The translations under genes were made by a program, and so were the position numbers. DNA of 64,000 bases from positions 1 through 64,000 of the forward strand of contig WTGP01000012.1 of the NCBI GenBank assembly GCA_011523505.1, in the 5' to 3' direction. A model generated the notes under the pieces. It was not told where the DNA came from. It made no database searches and was given only the letters and a program-made list of their open reading frames with translations. This DNA comes from Gammaproteobacteria bacterium (lineage in GTDB: Bacteria; Pseudomonadota; Gammaproteobacteria; Steroidobacterales; Foliamicaceae). Shown piece after piece: positions 25,048 to 36,466 of this stretch (position 1 is its first letter; every line of letters begins with the position of its first letter).

Positions 25048-27519
25048 ATGAGATTCAGACTTGCCGTTATTTGCGTCCTTGCTGCGGGCGCGATCATTGC
25101 CCCGCGTCCCGCGGTCACGCAGGAAGCCATGCTTGAGGAAATCATCGTGACCGCCCGCAAGCGCGAGGAGTCCGTGCAGGACATCCCGATCGCGGTCAGC
25201 GCCTTTACAGCAAACGACATCCGCGAACTGGGCATCAGGTCCGTTAACGATATTGCGCTCTACACCCCGGGCTTCTCGTTCCAGTCCGGTTTCGGGCGCA
25301 GTTCCAACCAGGACAGGCCGGCCATGCGCGGACAAACCACGATCATTAACGGAATTGCCAACGTGAAGGCGGTGTCCACGTTTGTGGACGGCATCTATGT
25401 GGGCGGCAAGGTTTCGTCCGTCGATATTGCCAACATCGAGCGCGTCGAAATCATCAAGGGCCCGCAATCCGCGCAATACGGGCGGGGCACCTACGCCGGC
25501 GCCATCAACTACGTAACCCGGCGGCCTTCGGAAGAACTGGAAGGCGAAATCACCGTGGGCGGCGCCGAGCACGAATCCTATGAGGTGCAGGGCTGGATCA
25601 GCGGCCCGCTGATTGAAGATACCGCCTGGTTCCGGCTTGCGGCGGGCTACGACCAGTACGGCGGCGAGCACGTCAACACGCTCACCGGTGACGAGGTCAA
25701 CGAGGAAAAAACCACCAACATATCCGGCAAGCTGTTCTTCACGCCCAACGAGCGGTTCGAGGCCACGTTGGCGCTGTCCTACCAGAAGGTGGACGACAGC
25801 CACCCGGCCCTTGCCCTGCAAGCCCGCGAGCACAACAACTGCTGCTTTCGCGGCGAGTCCACCGGAAGCCCGATCATTACCGGCGTGACCGGCCCCAGGG
25901 CGCGCGAGTACTACATTGGCGAGGCCCTGCGCAATCTGCCGGTGGCCCTCAATACCGCGGAACTTGATTCCGACACCGGCGCGGGCAACCGCCTGGATCG
26001 GATTACCGCTTCGCTGACCATGCACTACGACCTGGCCAACGATTGGCGCGTGTCCAGCCTCACCGGCCTGATCGACGACGAGTCCGAAACGGGCCTTGAC
26101 GGAACCTACGGCGGCTACGATTTCGGGGTGGCCTGGGTTAACGGTTACCCGCCTTTCCTGCGTCCCGGCCTGGGCCGGTTATTTTGCGTAACAATCGGCT
26201 TCTGCGGCCAATTCAATCGCATACTTGGCAACGACCAGTCCGACTTCTCCCAGGAACTCCGGCTTTCGTCTCCCTCCGACCGCGCATTTCGGGCCACCAT
26301 CGGCCTCTACTACTACCGGGGCAAGCAACACGAATACCGAGACGACAAGGTGATGACGGAATCGGCCGCGGCCCTCAGCGACCTGTACGGCTGGGGTCTG
26401 GTGGCCAGGACAGTGTCGCCCAACTCCACCATCGACTACGACGACGTCACCAACACGGCCGTTTTCGCTGCCCTCGAATGGGACTTGAGCGACAAGTGGA
26501 CCGCCACGGCCGAGGCGCGCGCCGCGACCGATGAAATAACGCTTGCCGTTTATGAACCCGGCGGGGCAACGCTACGCGGCCGCTACGAAGCCGAGTTCGA
26601 TTCCGTCAATCCAAGATTCACGCTGAGCTACAAGGCGAATGAGAACGCGAATCTGTATCTGAATATCGCCAAGGGTTCCAAGCCCGGCGACTTCAACACC
26701 CAGGTTCCGACCGGCGCGGACGGCAGCCCCGATGAATCCTTCCGCGCCGTGGACGAAGAAGTCGCCTGGAACTACGAAGCGGGATACAAAACGCTGCTGA
26801 TGGACGGCAGGACGGCGCTCAACGTGGCCGCCTATCTGACTGAAGTGACCGACCAGCAGTTCACGACCGTGATCGAGACGCCCACCGGGGGCAGCGCGTC
26901 GCTGCTCGACAACGTGGGCGAGACCCGCGTTGCCGGCCTGGAGGTTGATCTTCAGACGGCGCTGACCGACCAGTTGGTCGTGAATATCGGCTATGCCTGG
27001 ACCAACGCGGAGATTCAGGAATACGTCAATATCGATCAGGCGGACCTTAACGGCGCCAACGGCTCGCGTCGCGACCTGGCCCGCCTTGGCTCGGTGGCAG
27101 GCCAAAAAGTGCCGCGGATACCCGAGCACATGGCCTCTGTGGTGGCGCGCTACAGCGGCAACGCCATGGCGAGTGGCTTTGCCTGGTTCTTCACCGGAGA
27201 CGTCGTTTACGAAGGCTCGCGCTTTTCGCAAATCCACAACCTGATCGAAACCGGTGCGCTCACCCGGGTTGGCTTGCGAATCGGCGTTCGTCGCGACAAC
27301 CTGGAAATCGCTCTTTGGGGCAAGAACCTGTTCGATGACGACACTCCTCTCGACATCCTGCGCTACATCGACCGGCGCTCCGGCGGTTTGCCCAGCCACG
27401 CGCGCATCCCCGGCTATGTCCCCGGCGAACTGGGCAATCCGTCCAGCACCCCGCGCGGCTTCGCCATCTCGCTGCCCCGCGGCCGCCAGATGGGCGTAAC
27501 CGTCACCTACGGTTTCTGA
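25048..27519 (+). CDS. TonB-dependent outer-membrane receptor
   Basis: 823-residue receptor. A signal peptide (about 1-24) is followed by the TonB box region EEIIVTARKREESVQDIPIAVS, a plug domain (about 45-160, with RGQTTIINGIANVKAVSTFVDGIYVG and YGRGTYAGAINYVTRRP), and a 22-strand barrel to the terminal Phe. It belongs to the large group with the VTARKREE box found in marine and aromatic- or steroid-degrading proteobacteria. Ligand unknown. GGGAGG precedes ATG 25048. It lies between a two-component system and a Rieske plus sterol-methyltransferase pair, so sterol-like or other hydrophobic ligands are possible, though siderophore or glycan uptake cannot be excluded. Confidence 0.93.
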   Translation: MRFRLAVICVLAAGAIIAPRPAVTQEAMLEEIIVTARKREESVQDIPIAVSAFTANDIRELGIRSVNDIALYTPGFSFQSGFGRSSNQDRPAMRGQTTIINGIANVKAVSTFVDGIYVGGKVSSVDIANIERVEIIKGPQSAQYGRGTYAGAINYVTRRPSEELEGEITVGGAEHESYEVQGWISGPLIEDTAWFRLAAGYDQYGGEHVNTLTGDEVNEEKTTNISGKLFFTPNERFEATLALSYQKVDDSHPALALQAREHNNCCFRGESTGSPIITGVTGPRAREYYIGEALRNLPVALNTAELDSDTGAGNRLDRITASLTMHYDLANDWRVSSLTGLIDDESETGLDGTYGGYDFGVAWVNGYPPFLRPGLGRLFCVTIGFCGQFNRILGNDQSDFSQELRLSSPSDRAFRATIGLYYYRGKQHEYRDDKVMTESAAALSDLYGWGLVARTVSPNSTIDYDDVTNTAVFAALEWDLSDKWTATAEARAATDEITLAVYEPGGATLRGRYEAEFDSVNPRFTLSYKANENANLYLNIAKGSKPGDFNTQVPTGADGSPDESFRAVDEEVAWNYEAGYKTLLMDGRTALNVAAYLTEVTDQQFTTVIETPTGGSASLLDNVGETRVAGLEVDLQTALTDQLVVNIGYAWTNAEIQEYVNIDQADLNGANGSRRDLARLGSVAGQKVPRIPEHMASVVARYSGNAMASGFAWFFTGDVVYEGSRFSQIHNLIETGALTRVGLRIGVRRDNLEIALWGKNLFDDDTPLDILRYIDRRSGGLPSHARIPGYVPGELGNPSSTPRGFAISLPRGRQMGVTVTYGF

Positions 27520-27724: not shown

Positions 27725-28804
27725 ATGAATCTGGCGAACAAGCGTTATTACCCGCCGGGCAGGTACCCGGAAGGCTGGTATCTAGTGGAGATCGCCAGGA
27801 ATTTGCCCAAGGGCGGACTTCTCCAGAAAGAATGGATGGGCCGGCAGATCGTGGCCTGGCGCGATGCCGAAGGAAGAATTTGCGTGTCCGAGGCCTACTG
27901 CCCGCATCTGGGCGGACACCTGGGGCCGGACGGCGGCGGTTGCGTCAGAAACGGGCGTCTTGTCTGTCCCTTCCACGGCTTCGAATACGACGCCACCGGC
28001 CGGTGCGTGGCCACGCCGAATGCGCCGCCGCCCAGAACGGCGCGGCTCACTGTGTATGAGACGCGCGAACTCAACGGCCTCATTCTCGCCTGGTGGAGCC
28101 CGGTGGGACGCGAACCGCAGTGGGAGCTCCCCGAGTGGCCGGACAAGGAATGGCACCGCCTCCACTACGGGAGCGTACGGCTGCGCGGCCACCCGCAGGA
28201 AACCGCGGAAAACTCCGTGGATATCGCCCATTTCCGCTACGTGCATGGCTACGCGGCGGTGAAGCAGGTCGGAGACGTGCAGGTGGACGGCGCCTACCTG
28301 TGCAACCGGTTTGTTTTCAGGCGCAACGTTAAGCTGCTTGGCCTGCCGGTTCTTACCGATGTTGCCGCGACAACCCATGTGTGGGGCCTCGGCTACTCCT
28401 TCGTCGAGTTTCATGAGCGCGTAAGCGGGCTGAAACTGCGCCAGTGGATCCTTTCCACGCCCATTGACGATACGCACATCAAGCTCGTGGTCGCCCTCCA
28501 GATCAGGCGTTGGGAACCCGGGCAGAAATGGCTGGCGACATTGCTGCTTCGGTGTCTTCCCGCGAACTGGCTGACCCGGTTCTTCGTATCGCGGGTCAAG
28601 CACGACGTGCGCCAGGACGTGGCCATCTGGGAGAACAAGCGCTACCAGCCGCTGCCCATCCTGAGCCGCTCGGACGGCGAGATCATGACGTACCGGAAAT
28701 ACTGCGAGCAGTTCTATCCGGACGCCGAAGAGAGCCGCGCGCGTGTGCGCAGCCTCAAGCCCGCCCCGATTCATGCCGCGCGCGGCGCCAGGCTGGGCGC
28801 CTGA
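27725..28804 (+). CDS. Rieske oxygenase, steroid/sterol-type
   Basis: 359-residue Rieske non-haem iron oxygenase. Cluster ligands are in YCPHLGGHLG (C-x-H) and CPFHGFEYD (C-x2-H); the mononuclear site is ENSVDIAHFRYVHGY. This site and the overall layout resemble the steroid-acting group: KshA (3-ketosteroid 9-alpha-hydroxylase), DAF-36/Neverland (cholesterol 7-desaturase) and perhaps the bacterial sterol C-4 demethylase SdmA; I cannot choose among them. A hydrophobic segment near residues 270-290 (WLATLLLRCLPANWLTRFF) could associate with membrane. The gene lies 45 bases before a sterol methyltransferase homologue on the same strand, which supports a sterol substrate. No reductase is adjacent. 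Confidence 0.84.
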   Translation: MNLANKRYYPPGRYPEGWYLVEIARNLPKGGLLQKEWMGRQIVAWRDAEGRICVSEAYCPHLGGHLGPDGGGCVRNGRLVCPFHGFEYDATGRCVATPNAPPPRTARLTVYETRELNGLILAWWSPVGREPQWELPEWPDKEWHRLHYGSVRLRGHPQETAENSVDIAHFRYVHGYAAVKQVGDVQVDGAYLCNRFVFRRNVKLLGLPVLTDVAATTHVWGLGYSFVEFHERVSGLKLRQWILSTPIDDTHIKLVVALQIRRWEPGQKWLATLLLRCLPANWLTRFFVSRVKHDVRQDVAIWENKRYQPLPILSRSDGEIMTYRKYCEQFYPDAEESRARVRSLKPAPIHAARGARLGA

Positions 28805-28849: not shown

Positions 28850-29890
28850 ATGCCGGCGAAACTGCCCACGTCACTGAGGAACGCCTACAGGGGCTGGTCC
28901 GTCGCCAGCCGCGTCGAGTCGTTTGAAGGCTGGCTCGACAGGCGGGAAGGCGGCGACGCCGAAGACCGTGGTTATGACCATGCCGAGACGGTCAATGACT
29001 ACTACTCGCTGTGCAGCGAGTTCATGCAGTTCGGGTGGAACGAATCGCTGCACTTCGCCCCATTGAGGCCGGGCGAAAGCCTTGACGACTCGATCCTCCG
29101 GCATCAGCGGCTCATGATCGGCAAGCTCCGGCTCAAGGAGGGGATGACGGTCATTGACGTGGGGTGCGGAGTGGGCGGTCCGATGCGCCGGGTCGCCCGC
29201 GAGTCCGGCGCCCGCGTCGTCTGCCTCAACAACAACGAACAGCAACTGGAAAAGGCGAAGCGCAGGAACGTTGAAGCCGGTCTTGATCACATGGCGGACT
29301 ACGCCCACTGCAGCTTCATGGACATGAGCAGGTTCGGGCCCGACTCCTTCGACGCGGGCTATGCGATCGAGTCCACCTGCCATGCGCCGGACAAGAAGGG
29401 CGCTTTTGCCGAGATCTTCCGCGTGTTGAAGCCCGGGGCCTTGTTCTGGGGGCAGGAAATGTGCCTGACGAACAAGTTCGATCCGAACAGCGCCCGCCAC
29501 CGGGCCATCGAGCGCGAACTCATGCACGGGATCGCGTTGAACGGGATCGCAACCTTCGCGGAGGTCGATCGGGCGCTGGAGGCGGTGGGGTTCGAAGTGA
29601 TCGAGGGAATGGACAGGGCGACGCAGGAAGATCCGTACACCCCCTGGTATCAGCCTATGGAGGGAGAAACCGGGACGTTCCGGAACCTCCTGCGCAGGAC
29701 GCCTGCGGGCCGGAAGGCCATGATCGGCATGGTGAAGCTCACGGAGGCGGTCGGACTCTTCCCGAAGGGCTCCAACACGGTGGTCCGGCTCATGGACCGG
29801 ACCGCGGAGGCTTACGTTGCCGGCGGCAAGACCGGGATATTCACCCCGCTCTACTGTTTTCTCGCGCGCAAACCAGCGCGGACTGCTTGA
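28850..29890 (+). CDS. Sterol C-24 methyltransferase homologue (ERG6/SMT)
   Basis: 346-residue SAM-dependent methyltransferase matching eukaryotic sterol 24-C-methyltransferases along nearly its whole length. SAM motif I is VIDVGCGVGGPMRR (101-114) with LNNNEQQLEKAK after it. The sterol-binding segments are FGWNESLHFAPLRPGES (61-77; yeast YGWGSSFHF region) and YAIESTCHAPDKKG (171-184; yeast YAIEATCHAP). The C-terminal SMT domain is recognisable in YTPWYQPMEGE, LTEAVGLFPKGSNTV and VAGGKTGIFTPLYCFLARKP. The position of yeast Tyr81 is Met here. It would transfer methyl from SAM to the sterol side chain. Bacterial SMTs are rare. Codon use and GC resemble the neighbours, so any transfer is not recent. 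Confidence 0.86.
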   Translation: MPAKLPTSLRNAYRGWSVASRVESFEGWLDRREGGDAEDRGYDHAETVNDYYSLCSEFMQFGWNESLHFAPLRPGESLDDSILRHQRLMIGKLRLKEGMTVIDVGCGVGGPMRRVARESGARVVCLNNNEQQLEKAKRRNVEAGLDHMADYAHCSFMDMSRFGPDSFDAGYAIESTCHAPDKKGAFAEIFRVLKPGALFWGQEMCLTNKFDPNSARHRAIERELMHGIALNGIATFAEVDRALEAVGFEVIEGMDRATQEDPYTPWYQPMEGETGTFRNLLRRTPAGRKAMIGMVKLTEAVGLFPKGSNTVVRLMDRTAEAYVAGGKTGIFTPLYCFLARKPARTA

Positions 29891-30045: not shown

Positions 30046-31131
30046 TTAGCCTGTGGTGTCGCGCTGGACCCTGACGTGTTGGCCGGGACTGACGAATTCC
30101 TGGCCCACCGTGATCAATGTGACTTCGGCCGGCAATCCGGAAACCCACAGGCCGTCCGGATCTTCCCGGACCACGTCGATCGGGTAGAAGAGAACCCGCT
30201 GATCGTCGTCAACGGCGCGCACGCCCATTTCTCCGTTGGCGTCCAGCACCACGTAGGACATCCCCACCTTGTGCGCCGGCTGGGCATGCAGGGCCACTTC
30301 GACTTCCGCGCTCAACCCCGAGGAAATCGAAAAGTCCGGGTTGGGGACCGTCACTTCGATGGGATAGGTGCGTGACTGGTCCGCCGACTGCTTGCCGATA
30401 AACGTAAGCGAGCCGCGGGCCGTGCCGCCGGTGGCCATCGTGATCCGCACTTCGGCGCCTAGGTCCAGTTGCGGATACTGCTGCTCCGTGACCGCGGCCT
30501 CCACGTAGATCGGATCGAGATCGAGAACGGTGGCGCAGGGGCTGCCCATCTGCAGGTAGTCGCCCACCTCCGCATGCGTCTCTTCCACGAAGCCGGCGAA
30601 CGGCGCAACCACGGCGGTATTCTCAAGTTCCAGTTCGCTGGCCAGGAGCTGGCGGCGCGCTGAACTCAACTGGGCCTTGGCCCGGGCGACCGCGATCTCC
30701 TGCTGCAGGCCCCTTTCGCGCAGGGTCTTCATGCCTTCGTACTCCAGCGTCGCCAGATCGACCGCGTCGCCGGCCTCGCGAACGCGCAGTGCGCGGTCAT
30801 TGACCTCCACCTGGCAAAGCACATCGCCCGCCGACACCTGCGCCCCGATATCGATCGGCCGGTCATCCACGCGGCCGGATGTTTCGGCGCGCACCGTCAC
30901 CGCATGCCGGGTTCGCGTGCGGCCGCGCAGCGTCAGCGTCCTGGATTGTTCCGAAGCTCGGCTGGTTCGTACCCGCACCACGATGTCATCCCGCGCTTGG
31001 GCGCGCGAGGCGACCGACGCCTGCCCGTCGTCGTCGCCGCCGCCCAGAATTCCGGACAGCAGCCATACGGCGCAAACTGCAAGGACCAGCCCGGCCCACA
31101 ATGGTTTGCGCAGGGATTCCCTGATTTTCAT
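30046..31131 (-). CDS. RND efflux periplasmic adaptor (MFP)
   Basis: 361-residue membrane-fusion protein. An N-terminal anchor (about residues 11-29, LWAGLVLAVCAVWLLSGIL) is followed by the lipoyl-type half-motif VRAETSGRVDDRPIDIGAQVSAGDVLCQVE, a short alpha-hairpin (about 115-170), the second half VVAPFAGFVEETHAEVGDYLQMG, and beta-barrel and membrane-proximal domains. It links an inner-membrane RND pump to an outer-membrane channel. It is the last gene of a three-gene operon with the GPP34-P450 fusion (34 bases upstream) and the RND permease; no TolC-like gene is present. The stop lies 4 bases from the palindromic repeat. Confidence 0.92.
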   Translation of the reverse strand: MKIRESLRKPLWAGLVLAVCAVWLLSGILGGGDDDGQASVASRAQARDDIVVRVRTSRASEQSRTLTLRGRTRTRHAVTVRAETSGRVDDRPIDIGAQVSAGDVLCQVEVNDRALRVREAGDAVDLATLEYEGMKTLRERGLQQEIAVARAKAQLSSARRQLLASELELENTAVVAPFAGFVEETHAEVGDYLQMGSPCATVLDLDPIYVEAAVTEQQYPQLDLGAEVRITMATGGTARGSLTFIGKQSADQSRTYPIEVTVPNPDFSISSGLSAEVEVALHAQPAHKVGMSYVVLDANGEMGVRAVDDDQRVLFYPIDVVREDPDGLWVSGLPAEVTLITVGQEFVSPGQHVRVQRDTTG

Positions 31132-31165: not shown

Positions 31166-33208
31166 TCAGAAGTCGTGACGCCTTTTGTCAATGGTAAATC
31201 GAAACTTGCTGTTCGGTGCGCTGGTGGGAAACGGATTGAATCTCATCTCATAGTCCGACGGAACGACGCTGATGTCGAAATAGTAGGCGATCAGGAGCAG
31301 GTTGATCGTCATTTGCAGTTCCACCCATTTCGACCCCAGGCAATGATGCGTCCCGAGCCCGAACGGCACGTATGCTCCCGCGCGCTTGTGCTCGTCCCGA
31401 GGCGGCGCGTAGCGGTCGATATCGAATTTTGTGGGATCGGGAAAAGTCTCTTCCAGGTGGTGCGCGGCGGTGTGCGCAAACACCACGCGAGTGTCCTTCG
31501 GAATGTTGTAGCCCTGCACCACGCAGTGGTTCATGGTGGTTCGAAGCTGCATCGGAATGACCGGATACAGGCGCTGGGACTCCAGGAACACCCGGTGGGC
31601 GACGTCGATCGCGGACCTCGTGAAATCGTCCTTGCCCGGGTCGCCGTTGGCGAACAGCGTTTCGGCTTCCTTCTGAACCCGGCGGTAGATTTCGGGATGG
31701 CTGGCCATGCCGTACACCGCGAAGCTCAGCCCGCTGCCGAGGTAAATGCTGGCGATGAAGCCCGCGACCAGCATGAAGCTCAGATCGGTCTCCGGGAAAT
31801 ACTGGGGATCGCTGGCGTGCAGGCTCAGAATATGATCGACCAGGTCCTTGGGTTTGCCTTTACGCTGCGCCGGCGTGTGCGCATTCAATACCCGGTTGAG
31901 CATCTCGAAAATGCGCTTCCTCTTCCTGGCCATGCCGGGCGTCTGCATCATGAATTTCGGCAGGGCTTTCTGCACTTGCGTGACCAGCGAGCGGTGTTCG
32001 TAGCTGAGGAGATCGTCGATATGGTCCGACGCGTCCACGCCCACCATGAGCTGCGACACCTGAACGCTCATCAGCTCCTGGCATGCGGCGGCGCCTGGCA
32101 TCGGTTGCCCCGGGACCCATTTCTCCAGTGACGCACGGCAGAATTTATATACTTCGTCCAGCCTCGCCTCCAGCGTCGCGCGGGAATAACCGGCGCGCAA
32201 GGACTTTCTCATTCGGTAATGCTCCGTGCCGTCCATGCCGGGCAAGGTCCGCGACGCACCGTACAGTTGCTCGAAGTCGGCCATGTGGTCCCGCGTGCGG
32301 AAATAGGTGCGGCCGTTGCGGTTGATCCATGCGTTGGTGTCCGGGCCGGCAAGCACGACAACGCCCTTTTCCGAGAAAGGCTTCTTGATCCTGAAAACCG
32401 GACCGTATTCCCTGTACAGGTCCGTCAGGATCCTTGAAAGGTTGCCCCGCCTCAGGTTTCGATTCGGAATCAGCTTCAGCAGGTTGGCGACCGGAATCGG
32501 CCGGGTGCGCCCTACGGGCTGCTGCACCGGGCGTCCCTGACTCTCCCTTACAGCCGCGCCGATGGCCCGTCCCACCAGGTCCATTTTGCAGAGCAGATCG
32601 ATGCGCTCGCGCGATTCCTCATACTCTTCTTCGGTGAGCAACAGCGGCAGGGCGTCGCATGCGGCAATCAGGCTGATCAGGATCACATCCCGGGGATCGG
32701 GAATCTCATCGTCCAGGATGGCGCGAAGGACGCGCGTCTTGACCTGCAGTTTGGTCGATCCGTCGTCCGCGGAGTACGTTCCGGTGCGCGATACCTGGCG
32801 GCTCAGGGACCAGAAGCCACCCGAATCGTGGTCCAGAATGTTCTTCTCGACCAGCCGGTCGAGGATGATGTCCATCGCGTCGTCCGATCGCTGCGCGGTC
32901 TTTTCGATCCAGTACTGGGCGTTGTGCACCGGCGGGGGCGCCGAGGCGATTTCCTCCAGCACCGGATCCAGCAGGGGGTCGCCCGTCTCCTTGGCGTCCA
33001 GGAGCGTAAGCGTCTCCGTATCGGTGTCGATGCGGAATTCGAGCGAAAGGTCCGCGAGCACCGAGCCCGCGATCACGCAGGACAGGTTCCAGGCGCCGAC
33101 GGGCTCGAAATAGCCGCTGTCTTCGTTAAGAAGAACCAGGGCCAACTCTTCTGCCAATCTCACAACTACCCCCGCAGTCGAATCAGTTGTCCATAAGACA
33201 CGGGTCAA
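31166..33208 (-). CDS. GPP34 domain-cytochrome P450 fusion
   Basis: 680-residue two-domain protein. Residues about 12-225 match the GPP34 (Golgi phosphoprotein 3) family: LAEELALVLLNED, the hydrophobic helix VIAGSVLADLSLEFRID, TGDPLLDPVLEEIA, RLVEKNILDHDSGGFW and DPRDVILISLIAACD. Eukaryotic GOLPH3 binds PI4P at membranes through this fold. Residues about 245-680 form a P450: K-helix ESQR (near E543), the FDIDRYAPPRDE segment and haem loop FGLGTHHCLG with ligand C623. The I-helix reads AGFIAS where AGxDTT is usual, so the acid-alcohol oxygen-activation pair is missing. It starts one base after the RND permease stop. I infer a membrane-docked oxidase of a lipid substrate; the fusion is unlike any P450 I know. 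Confidence 0.87.
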   Translation of the reverse strand: MTRVLWTTDSTAGVVVRLAEELALVLLNEDSGYFEPVGAWNLSCVIAGSVLADLSLEFRIDTDTETLTLLDAKETGDPLLDPVLEEIASAPPPVHNAQYWIEKTAQRSDDAMDIILDRLVEKNILDHDSGGFWSLSRQVSRTGTYSADDGSTKLQVKTRVLRAILDDEIPDPRDVILISLIAACDALPLLLTEEEYEESRERIDLLCKMDLVGRAIGAAVRESQGRPVQQPVGRTRPIPVANLLKLIPNRNLRRGNLSRILTDLYREYGPVFRIKKPFSEKGVVVLAGPDTNAWINRNGRTYFRTRDHMADFEQLYGASRTLPGMDGTEHYRMRKSLRAGYSRATLEARLDEVYKFCRASLEKWVPGQPMPGAAACQELMSVQVSQLMVGVDASDHIDDLLSYEHRSLVTQVQKALPKFMMQTPGMARKRKRIFEMLNRVLNAHTPAQRKGKPKDLVDHILSLHASDPQYFPETDLSFMLVAGFIASIYLGSGLSFAVYGMASHPEIYRRVQKEAETLFANGDPGKDDFTRSAIDVAHRVFLESQRLYPVIPMQLRTTMNHCVVQGYNIPKDTRVVFAHTAAHHLEETFPDPTKFDIDRYAPPRDEHKRAGAYVPFGLGTHHCLGSKWVELQMTINLLLIAYYFDISVVPSDYEMRFNPFPTSAPNSKFRFTIDKRRHDF

Positions 33209-36200
33209 TCATACGCCGGGAGAGCGGTCCGCGTAACTGTCTCCGCCGCGAAGCCGGACCGGCTTCGGCGCCCTGCTGCGCAGGTCCGTCAGAACACCCG
33301 AGAACATCCCCTTGAGCCGGCTCGGCAGCACCAGCAGCGCCGGCGTCAGGATCAGCGTCAGGATCGTGGCGAAGGTCAGTCCGGACACGACGGCCTGGGC
33401 CAGAGGCACCCAGTAACCCGAAAGCTCGCCTCCGGAGACCCACCTTCGGTTGATGAAATCCACCGATTGATGGCTGGCCAGCGGCAGCAGTCCGATCACG
33501 GTGGTGACGGTGGTGAGAAGCACCGGCCGCAGGCGCTGCAGTCCGGTAAGCACAATGAGTTCGCCGATGTCCCGGTCGGGAAATTCCCTGCGGCCCACGT
33601 TGTAGGTGTCGATCAGCACGATGTTGTTGTTCACGACGATGCCCGCCAGCGACACCACGCCCACCCCGCTCAATATCGCGCTGAACGGCTGGTTGGTGAT
33701 GACCAGCCCCAGAAACACTCCGGCCGTGGACAGCACGATCGCCAGCATGATCAGGAAGCTCTGGTAAATGTTGTTGAACTGCGTGACCAGCAACGCGAAC
33801 ATGAGCAGCAGCGCAAAGGAAAAGGCCTTGGAGAGAAAGTCGATCGACTCTTCCTGCTCCTCGGTCGTGCCGCGGAAGCGGATATCCACCTCCGAATCGA
33901 AAGTCTGGCTGTCCAGCCACGCCTGGATCTCCCGGATCTTGGCGTCCGGCAGCACGCCGGGCGCCACGCCGGCCCGGATCATGTGGATGTCCTCCTGGTC
34001 GGCCCGCTGGATGGTGTCCAGCCGGGGCGTCGCGCGCCGGGTGACGAAATTGGACAACGGCACAGGCCCGTTGCGGGTGACGATCCTCAGGTCGTCGAGT
34101 TCGTTGACGCCGCGGTCTTCGGTCGGGTAGCGGATCCTGATGTCCAGCGCATCGTCCGCGTCATCGGGGCGGTATTCGCCCAGCTTGGCGCCGTTCGTCA
34201 CGAGCTGCGTCGCCAGTCCAACGGTGGAGACGTCGGCGCCGTACAGGCCCGCCACGGCCCGGTCCACTTCCAGTTGCCATTCGATTCCGGGCACGGGAAG
34301 CGTGTCCTCGATGTCCCTCAGTCCTTCGACCTCGTTGACGATGTACTCGCGCACCCTTTCGACCACGGGAACAAGGCGCTCACGCTCATTGGAGGAGAAC
34401 TGCAGGGCGATCGGTTTGCCGGCGGTGATCTGGCTCTCGAACGGCCGCACTTCGATGATCACCCCGCCGAACCTCTCCGTTCGTCGCCGAACTTCCTCCA
34501 GCACTTCCATGCCGGTCGTGTCGCGCTGGCTGCTCTCGACCATCTCGACGAACATGGCGCCGATGCGGTCCGCGGTCGAGCCGCCCTGGTATTGCATCCG
34601 CTGTCCCTGGGCCTGGCCCGCGCCAGTCGTGGTGAACATGTTCAGGTTCTTGATGCCCGGGACCTCGAGGACCGCTGCCTCCACCTCGGCCACCAGCCGG
34701 TAGGCTTCCTCCACGTCCAGGTTGCCGCGGGCGCGCACGAACACCTGGGCGTAGGTGGGGTCGTTCTCGTTGAAGAAAAGCACGCCCAGGTCGCGCGAGC
34801 CATGCACCGTGAATATGCCCAGTACCAGCGCGATCACGATGGCGACCGTGACCAGGGGACGGCGCACGGCCAGCGCAAGCAGGCGGCCGTAGCCGCGCGC
34901 GAAACGGCCCAGCCGCGACCAGTCCAGTTCCCACATGCTGTCCGCGCCCGCCGCCGCCACGGCGGATACGAGGCTTCGGCGCCGGAACGTCGTGCCCAGG
35001 ACCGGGGCGAATATCAACGCGTAGAGCAGCGCTCCGATCAGCACCCACAGCAGGGTAATGGGCAGGTATCCCATGAAGGCGCCGGCCACGCCGGGCCAGA
35101 ACATCAGCGGCACGAAGGCCGCCAGGGTGGTCGCGGTGGAGGCCAGCACGGGCAGGAACATGCGCTTGGCGGCCGCCCCATAAGCCTCAAGTTCGGTTTC
35201 GCCTTCCGTGATTCGCCGTTCGGCATCCTCGGTGACCACGATGGCGCCGTCGATCAGCATGCCCAGACCCAGCAGCATGCCGAACATGACCATGAAGTTG
35301 AACGAGTGGCCGAACAGCCACAGGAAGATCAGCGCGAACAGGAACGAAACCGGGATGGCGCCGGCCACCAACAAGCTGCTCCTCAGGCCCATGGCCGGGA
35401 ATATGACCAGCATCACCAGCACCAGAGCGGTCACGATGTTCCCCTGCAATTCGACGATCTGCTTGGCGGCGAACTGGGACGTGTCCTGGGAATAGAACAT
35501 GTTGACGCCCGCGGGCAGCCGATCGCGGAAACCGTCCGCCACTTCTCGGACCGCGGTTGCCGTTTCGATGCTGTTTGCGCCCGAACGCCGGTACACGAAC
35601 ACCGATATGGAACGCTCGCCGTTGGCGTGGGAGTAGCTGGCCCGGTCCTTGAACGTGCGCCTCACCGAGGCCACGTCGCTCAAGGTCACGACCGTGTCGC
35701 CTTCGATGCGCACCGGAATGTCGAGCAGGTCGTCCGTGGATTCGATGACGCTGGGCACCTTGACCGAGACGCTCCCCTGGGCGGAATCCATCGCGCCCGC
35801 CGCGATCAGCCGGTTGTTGCGCGTCAGCGCCCCGTAGAGCTCCTCCACGGACATCCGGTAGGTCGCGAGCTGCTCCGGCCGGATGAGGATTTCCATGAAC
35901 TCCTCGCGGTGCCCCTGCAGCGCCGCCAATTGCACCTGGCCTACCGTTTCGATCCGGTCGCGAAGGCTGCGCGCGGTGGCGTAGAGAGTTTCCTCCGGTG
36001 TATTGCGTCCTACCAGGTTGATCTGCAGCACGGGGTAGTCGGTGGTCGCGGTCTCCTCGACGATCGGCTCCTCCGTCGTGGACGGGAACTCGGGCTTGGC
36101 CCGATTCACGGCCTCGCGCACGTCGCTCAGTGCTACGTCGAGGTCGATTCCCGTCTGGAACTCCACCCCCACCATGGCCATGTTCTCGGCGCCCGTGCCG

Positions 36201-36466
36201 GTGATTTCCCGGACGCCTTCAACGGCCTTGAGCTCGATTTCCAGCGGCAGGATCAGCAGCCGCCGGGCGTCTTCCGGAGAGATGCCCTCGTGAACGACCG
36301 TGATGACGTAGAACGGGATTTCGATGCGGGGTTCGCTCTCGACCGGGATCGACACGCGCGCGACGATCCCGAAGATCACGATGCCGATCATCGCCAGCAG
36401 CGTGGACCGCCGACGCTCAAGCGATAAATCGATGATCCTGTCTTTCATGCGAAATGGCGCCGCCAC
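33209..36466 (-). CDS. RND-family efflux permease (HAE1-like)
   Basis: 1085-residue proton-driven inner-membrane transporter with the duplicated RND layout: TM1 (TLLAMIGIVIFGIVA), a large porter loop, TM2-6 (about 335-490), TM7 (about 540), a second loop and TM8-12 (about 880-1040). TM4 reads GMLIDGAIVVTEDAERR, so the AcrB Asp pair D407-D408 is D-G here; TM10 has GIVVNNNIVLID where AcrB has Lys940. Start options are GTG 36466 and ATG 36448 (1079 residues); neither has a clear ribosome site. It is the first gene of an operon with the GPP34-P450 fusion and an adaptor. The substrate may be the P450 product; bacterial sterol transport by an RND protein (BstA) is a known precedent. Confidence 0.93.
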   Translation of the reverse strand: MAAPFRMKDRIIDLSLERRRSTLLAMIGIVIFGIVARVSIPVESEPRIEIPFYVITVVHEGISPEDARRLLILPLEIELKAVEGVREITGTGAENMAMVGVEFQTGIDLDVALSDVREAVNRAKPEFPSTTEEPIVEETATTDYPVLQINLVGRNTPEETLYATARSLRDRIETVGQVQLAALQGHREEFMEILIRPEQLATYRMSVEELYGALTRNNRLIAAGAMDSAQGSVSVKVPSVIESTDDLLDIPVRIEGDTVVTLSDVASVRRTFKDRASYSHANGERSISVFVYRRSGANSIETATAVREVADGFRDRLPAGVNMFYSQDTSQFAAKQIVELQGNIVTALVLVMLVIFPAMGLRSSLLVAGAIPVSFLFALIFLWLFGHSFNFMVMFGMLLGLGMLIDGAIVVTEDAERRITEGETELEAYGAAAKRMFLPVLASTATTLAAFVPLMFWPGVAGAFMGYLPITLLWVLIGALLYALIFAPVLGTTFRRRSLVSAVAAAGADSMWELDWSRLGRFARGYGRLLALAVRRPLVTVAIVIALVLGIFTVHGSRDLGVLFFNENDPTYAQVFVRARGNLDVEEAYRLVAEVEAAVLEVPGIKNLNMFTTTGAGQAQGQRMQYQGGSTADRIGAMFVEMVESSQRDTTGMEVLEEVRRRTERFGGVIIEVRPFESQITAGKPIALQFSSNERERLVPVVERVREYIVNEVEGLRDIEDTLPVPGIEWQLEVDRAVAGLYGADVSTVGLATQLVTNGAKLGEYRPDDADDALDIRIRYPTEDRGVNELDDLRIVTRNGPVPLSNFVTRRATPRLDTIQRADQEDIHMIRAGVAPGVLPDAKIREIQAWLDSQTFDSEVDIRFRGTTEEQEESIDFLSKAFSFALLLMFALLVTQFNNIYQSFLIMLAIVLSTAGVFLGLVITNQPFSAILSGVGVVSLAGIVVNNNIVLIDTYNVGRREFPDRDIGELIVLTGLQRLRPVLLTTVTTVIGLLPLASHQSVDFINRRWVSGGELSGYWVPLAQAVVSGLTFATILTLILTPALLVLPSRLKGMFSGVLTDLRSRAPKPVRLRGGDSYADRSPGV

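Follow-up and report, generated by a model that had tools for sequence, protein, structure and literature searches.

A divergent sterol methyltransferase subfamily in a probable sterol-tailoring gene cassette of sponge-symbiont bacteria

Background

Sterol methyltransferases (SMTs) from bacterial symbionts of sponges are known from earlier reports and assays (PMC10070321, PMC9531527). The SMTs described in the main text of Brown et al. 2023 (PMC10070321), assayed on desmosterol and 24-methylenecholesterol, resemble the enzymes considered here, named type B, in coming from uncultured, often sponge-symbiont hosts and in carrying the PF08498 domain. Some of them are located in sterol clusters, and in several cases two SMTs are found in one cluster or MAG, as in the host genome analysed below. 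The same main text contains neither the change in Region I nor the cassette of GPP34-P450 and Rieske genes found with type B, and the only SMT carrier without oxidosqualene cyclase (OSC) reported in it is one Chlamydiae MAG.

De novo sterol clusters are known from two further studies. The msb locus, msbA-F, of a Melophlus gammaproteobacterial symbiont encodes a bifunctional epoxidase/cyclase, MsbE (Mohanty 2020, PMC7074536), and clusters of steroid genes (CSGs) were described in Ircinia MAGs of 10 phyla, with horizontal transfer (Kelly 2022, PMC9531527). A fused SMO/OSC is also mentioned by Brown 2023 (PMC10070321).

The aromatic segment named Region I (Tyr81-Phe91 of yeast Erg6) directs C-24 methylation via cation-pi contacts (PMC5711494), and its aromatics form what has been called the C-24 cation-pi box (PMC5711494, PMC6997595); a glutamate flanking the segment is essential (PMC10968281). 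The nematode sterol 4-SMT, an animal enzyme active on 3-oxo sterols, is an SMT relative lacking the aromatic signature of Region I, and is likened here to type B by its description (PMC6997595). Aplysterol and 26-methylstigmastane carry a methyl group added at C-26.

Results

The window analysed is a stretch of 64,000 nucleotides from a gammaproteobacterial assembly (GCA_011523505.1, contig WTGP01000012.1). It contains an open reading frame starting with ATG, with a GGGAG ribosome-binding motif 5' of the start:

28850..29890, + strand: type-B sterol methyltransferase, 346 aa (PF08498 66.2 bits, Methyltransf_11 65.3 bits)

An earlier note, made from the sequence alone, had described the product as a sterol C-24 methyltransferase. 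The family assignment was borne out by Pfam profile searches, which detected the SAM domain Methyltransf_11 at residues 102-199 (cut-off 21.2 bits) and, behind it, the C-terminal SMT domain Sterol_MT_C, PF08498, at residues 281-342 (cut-off 21.7 bits). A non-SMT methyltransferase was ruled out as family label, PF08498 being far above cut-off. PF08498 was absent from all 14 control genomes, and pairwise dN/dS against nine relatives was 0.08-0.20; the match is therefore not a chance one, and purifying selection acts on the ORF. Taken together, the ORF, the PF08498 match, the controls and the dN/dS values indicate that the gene is real and that its family call is right. Identity to yeast Erg6 is about 40% across 323 residues, a value for orientation only. 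The AlphaFold model (pLDDT 83.6, pTM 0.86) is closest, in a PDB fold search, to natural-product and prenyl-diphosphate methyltransferases; no SMT was named among the matches listed, and the result is uninformative.

In a tree of 92 SMTs, the window protein is placed within a clade of 73 proteins, type B, with SH-aLRT support of 100. The stem of this clade measures 0.99 changes per column, against mostly 0.02-0.3 for its inner branches. Type-A SMTs fall outside, including one encoded on another contig, C45, of the same genome. The tree covers SMTs alone, and type B forms in it one clade next to type A and three eukaryotic references, which serve for orientation only.

The window SMT has in common with eukaryotic ERG6/SMT1/SMT2 the methyltransferase core, the C-terminal SMT domain and the AIEsTCHAP segment; in contrast to them, type B has Tyr81, Glu82, Phe89, Tyr153, Tyr223 and Trp225 (Erg6 numbering) replaced. 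Five changes are found in 100% of the 73 type-B proteins, namely Tyr81 to Met, Phe89 to Leu, Ala221 to Trp and, on strand 5, Tyr223 to Gln and Trp225 to Met. In nearly all of them Glu82 is replaced by V/Q/I, being retained in about 4%, and Tyr153 by I/Q/V. Type A and the eukaryotic references retain Tyr/Phe81, Glu82, Phe89, Tyr153 and Trp/Tyr225, with Tyr223 in all but one sequence. Region I of the window protein reads MQFGWN..L, against the C-24 signature YEYGWG...F, so that both signature and Glu82 are missing, as are the strand-5 residues Tyr223/Trp225 of C-24 SMTs.

The C-24 specificity proposed in the earlier note is not upheld by these data, since the whole clade is uniformly without the Region I and strand-5 residues marking C-24 SMTs. 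Of the two sterol-binding segments to which it had pointed, YAIESTCHAP is kept, while Region I is altered, with YEYGWG changed to MQFGWN and SFHF to SLHF. Judged by its residues, the motif GWNESLHF is the type-B form of Region I and not evidence for C-24 chemistry, because the functional positions differ from those of C-24 SMTs.

SMTs belonging neither to type A nor to type B, with the Region I signature largely kept, were observed in related genera (L016 in genome G131, L022 in G027), in which a further SMT was also found (L021, G119).

The following genes are located around the window SMT:

25048..27519, + strand: TonB-dependent outer-membrane receptor (TonB_dep_Rec 128 bits, Plug 69 bits)
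27725..28804, + strand: KshA-like Rieske oxygenase (KshA_C 94.8 bits, Rieske 67 bits)
30046..31131, - strand: HlyD/RND membrane-fusion protein (TIGR01730 141.7 bits, above cut-off; HlyD-type families 68-73 bits)
31166..33208, - strand: GPP34-P450 fusion, 680 aa (GPP34 117 bits at aa 18-222, p450 150 bits at aa 249-658)
33209..36466, - strand: RND inner-membrane transporter, conserved across the genus together with the SMT

The context had been taken for an ordinary gammaproteobacterial one. This is not so, as the SMT is adjoined by the KshA-like Rieske, GPP34-P450 and RND genes; it is also contradicted by the presence, at other sites of the genome, of another SMT and a complete sterol cluster.

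The Rieske gene lies 45 bp upstream of the SMT gene on the same strand, and the two are likely co-transcribed. Its nearest solved structures are 3-ketosteroid 9alpha-hydroxylases, and the metal ligands CxH/CxxH and D-x2-H-x4-H are invariant in 42 homologues and in the window copy. The GPP34-P450 fusion gene is convergent with the SMT gene, and matches covering over 90% of its 680 aa were found in 57 loci. In its P450 part the heme Cys and ExxR are kept and the I-helix acid-alcohol pair is missing in nearly all homologues, a residue pattern which suggests unusual chemistry. A literature search for bacterial fusions of GPP34, a Golgi phosphoprotein 3-like domain, to P450 returned no relevant paper. 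The RND transporter is 90-100% identical in four loci (L030-L033). The TonB-dependent receptor gene, upstream of the Rieske gene, is conserved in close relatives only (L030-L032); it is a genus-level neighbour, whose membership in the cassette is uncertain.

A genome scan detected 496 relatives, of which the best 80 were taken, all type B by identity (65-94%). Neighbours were counted within 10 kb in the 50 fully flanked type-B loci, defined by at least 9 kb on either side: the GPP34-P450 fusion is present in 44/50, the KshA-like Rieske gene in 36/50 and both in 35/50. The median gap between SMT and fusion is 137 bp (61 loci with the fusion). Within the window's order, the fusion was found in 12/12 type-B genomes versus 2/132 others (Fisher 9e-16, a guide only, as related genomes are not independent). 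Other recurrent neighbours of type B are a FAD amine-oxidase-like protein (26 loci), HlyD (15) and an outer-membrane channel (14). RND pumps are found in 20 loci, or 24/80 when distant RND pumps are counted, and MMPL pumps with similarity to sterol-sensing domains in 18 + 8 loci. The cassette adjoins a de novo sterol cluster in six loci, five of which are titled Nitrospirota (L061, L062, L065, L075, L078), the sixth, L092, having no phylum in its title. An ERG4/ERG24-like reductase that shares about 30% identity with the enzyme of the cluster was observed near the type-B SMT in four Chloroflexota loci (L087, L097, L101, L106).

Among the best 80 of the 496 relatives, type B occurs in at least seven phyla, mostly in probable sponge symbionts. 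Record titles name Gammaproteobacteria, Alphaproteobacteria, Chloroflexota, Nitrospirota, Nitrospinota, Gemmatimonadota, Actinomycetota and Dadabacteria (under Thermodesulfobacteriota at NCBI). The sponge origin of several MAG sets was deduced from isolate codes, many of which (RHO, COS, IRC, APA and TsSOB lac_sponge) agree with known sponge surveys (e.g. PMC8163846). The named relatives in the window's genus are uncultured MAGs, some of them out of sponge surveys. Among 398 genomes drawn evenly from the phylum, the window's genome was alone in having PF08498 or the P450 fusion.

Taxonomic labels change along the type-B tree 5 times for Pseudomonadota and 6 times for Chloroflexota. Because most of these changes (4 and 5, respectively) are forced by well-supported branches, type B is, as judged from the tree, a gene that moved between phyla by horizontal transfer. 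Mis-binning is not the explanation, since three phyla are represented among the single-chromosome records that carry type B (L033, L038, L051, L054, L096). A few MAG assignments are wrong: identical type-B SMTs in two public MAGs, one labelled Rhodospirillales (L036) and one Chloroflexota (L056), probably reflect a binning error.

An OSC-class cyclase was found in 21/80 type-B carriers (19/50 + 2/30), the call being a relative one, at over 700 bits to TIGR03463 (model cut-off 851), with hopene-cyclase-like proteins at 220-300 bits. At least two SMT matches, partial ones excluded, are present in 18/19 carriers with OSC versus 8/31 without (Fisher 1.4e-6). The single-chromosome records L038, L054 and L096 have no OSC and contain ERG4/ERG24-family reductases. 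Since most carriers are without OSC, in many of them type B, if acting on sterols, must use sterols from elsewhere.

A PF08498 search revealed two SMTs in the host genome, 44% identical to each other, the second being part of a sterol cluster on contig C45:

L006:6739-7800, - strand: type-A, canonical C-24-type SMT, inside the de novo sterol cluster
L006:3284-6733: squalene epoxidase-oxidosqualene cyclase (SE-OSC) fusion, single ORF, 1149 aa

The fusion ORF matches SE with 72.7 bits and, for OSC, TIGR01787 with 498 bits, above its cut-off, and TIGR03463 with 747 bits, below the model cut-off of 851. The cluster also contains an SdmB-like epimerase (NF052578, 297 bits) and an SdmA-like Rieske oxygenase (NF052579, 403 bits), both below the equivalog cut-off of 600, an ERG4/ERG24 reductase (247 bits) and a P450 taken as CYP51 by eye, from its AGxHTS-type I-helix; the type-A SMT is on the strand opposite to the rest. 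By gene content, the host genome is a de novo sterol producer, as squalene epoxidase, oxidosqualene cyclase and genes for C-14 and C-4 demethylation are all present. A binning artefact uniting two organisms is unlikely: in the same genus, G005 (matching the named record OX639965.1) is a single-chromosome genome with type A, OSC and type B.

This cluster is already known from published work. It has the same gene set as the Ircinia CSGs and the msb locus, with which it shares SdmB-like, SdmA-like, ERG24 and CYP51 genes, the fused epoxidase-cyclase (MsbE) and an SMT (MsbF) (PMC7074536). The msb/CSG SMT is of type A, whereas the window SMT belongs to another subfamily and has other neighbours. The SE-OSC fusion is no novelty, as it has been published under the names MsbE (PMC7074536) and 'fused SMO/OSC' (PMC10070321). 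Open frames of over 1100 aa, as in this fusion, were observed at most OSC matches across phyla. A predicted membrane protein of 244 aa (L006:7879-8613) adjoins the type-A SMT; it is 60% identical to its counterpart in a Nitrospira cluster (L065), has no Pfam and no PDB match, and is a possible candidate for an undescribed sterol enzyme.

Discussion

The reading we favour, and consider probable, is that type B is a divergent SMT subfamily belonging to a mobile cassette with which bacterial symbionts of sponges tailor sterols, and has a substrate unlike that of type A. SAM is bound at the conserved site of the window SMT, as homology shows, and a methyl group would be transferred to a sterol, as family, neighbours and host pathway suggest. 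Since every type-B member has the aromatic C-24/C-25 cation box replaced, the sterol taken by the window enzyme is probably not the one used by the canonical type-A SMT of its genome; the methyl group may go to a side chain that has already been alkylated or oxidised, or to a different position of the sterol. Carriers without OSC would obtain the substrate from the sponge or from other symbionts. The KshA-like Rieske oxygenase and the GPP34-P450 fusion would act with the SMT as a tailoring cassette, spread horizontally. The sequences establish family, clade, residue changes, cassette and distribution, while the sterol substrate, its product, the position methylated, the order of the reactions and transport by RND or MMPL pumps are inferred; co-location of SMT, Rieske and fusion genes does not prove one pathway.

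Somewhat less than an even chance is given to an explanation partly overlapping the preferred one, in which type B alkylates the side chain at C-24/C-28 like any ordinary SMT and may do so more than once. Family membership is consistent with it, the E195-type motif is kept, and C2-transfer is gained by yeast mutants of Region I, the subject of titles cited in PMC10968281 and PMC6997595. Type-A and type-B SMTs occur in one cluster of the Nitrospira bin L075, and reductases of the ERG4/ERG24 family, to which the 24(28)-reductase belongs, are found in carriers without OSC. The smaller residues of type B would give room for 24-methylene, 24-ethylidene or 24-isopropyl chains, as in the propylating bacterial enzymes that Brown et al. 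describe; in the main text of that study three symbiont SMTs, two of them from Aplysina, perform all three methylations (PMC10070321). Type-B enzymes may themselves be among the 20 of 24 metagenomic SMTs reported there to alkylate sterol side chains in vitro, since the BLAST limits given in that study admit the window protein. On the other hand, YEWGWG is intact in SMT2, the plant enzyme that adds the second carbon, so that the box need not be lost to accommodate a larger side chain. Glu82, kept throughout type A and the eukaryotic references, is V/Q/I in nearly all type-B proteins, and a glutamate flanking Region I is described as essential (PMC10968281).

Methylation of the sterol elsewhere than at C-24/C-28, for instance at C-26 or on ring A of a 3-oxo sterol, is rather unlikely. 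The wholesale loss of the C-24 box points in this direction, as do the nematode 4-SMT, which methylates C-4 of 3-oxo sterols without the Region I aromatics (PMC6997595), and the partner Rieske oxygenase, nearest to 3-ketosteroid hydroxylases among solved structures; in the main text of Brown et al. no enzyme is known for C-26 methylation (PMC10070321). Direct evidence, however, points to no particular carbon. A bolder version of the same idea, which we hold to be distinctly unlikely, would make type B an SMT whose regiochemistry has no known bacterial precedent, such as the C-26 methyltransferase so far missing from the sponge holobiont, in a cassette whose GPP34-fused, non-canonical P450 and Rieske oxygenase would remodel sterols taken from the host or from neighbouring symbionts.

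A role for type B in methylating a terpenoid other than a sterol, or some other lipid, within a secondary-metabolite pathway unrelated to sterols is improbable. The nearest solved folds, the lack of OSC in most carriers and a P450 devoid of canonical oxygen-activation residues would fit such a role. The fold result is however uninformative, as none of the solved structures listed could be recognised as an SMT from its name, and sterols are indicated by the SMT C-terminal domain, by a partner resembling KshA, by a pump of the sterol-sensing type and by the location of cassettes next to sterol clusters. Least probable is a cassette for sterol catabolism, by KshA-type ring opening and P450 attack on the side chain, with the SMT as accessory: KshA-like Rieske oxygenases and P450s are enzyme types acting early in bacterial cholesterol breakdown, but this route is not known to involve a methyltransferase, and other catabolic genes did not stand out among the recurrent type-B neighbours inspected.

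On the preferred reading, a divergent subfamily with its own tailoring cassette, the genes described are probably part of an undescribed sterol-tailoring pathway. A PF08498 or 'ERG6' label in bacteria does not, alone, predict C-24 alkylation. Steranes with alkylated side chains are used in dating the earliest animals, and 26-methyl sterols have no known enzyme; a small, clonable gene set offers a handle on who makes the unusual sterols of sponges. If the reading is true, bacteria may remodel host sterols through an SMT subfamily often found without sterol-making genes.
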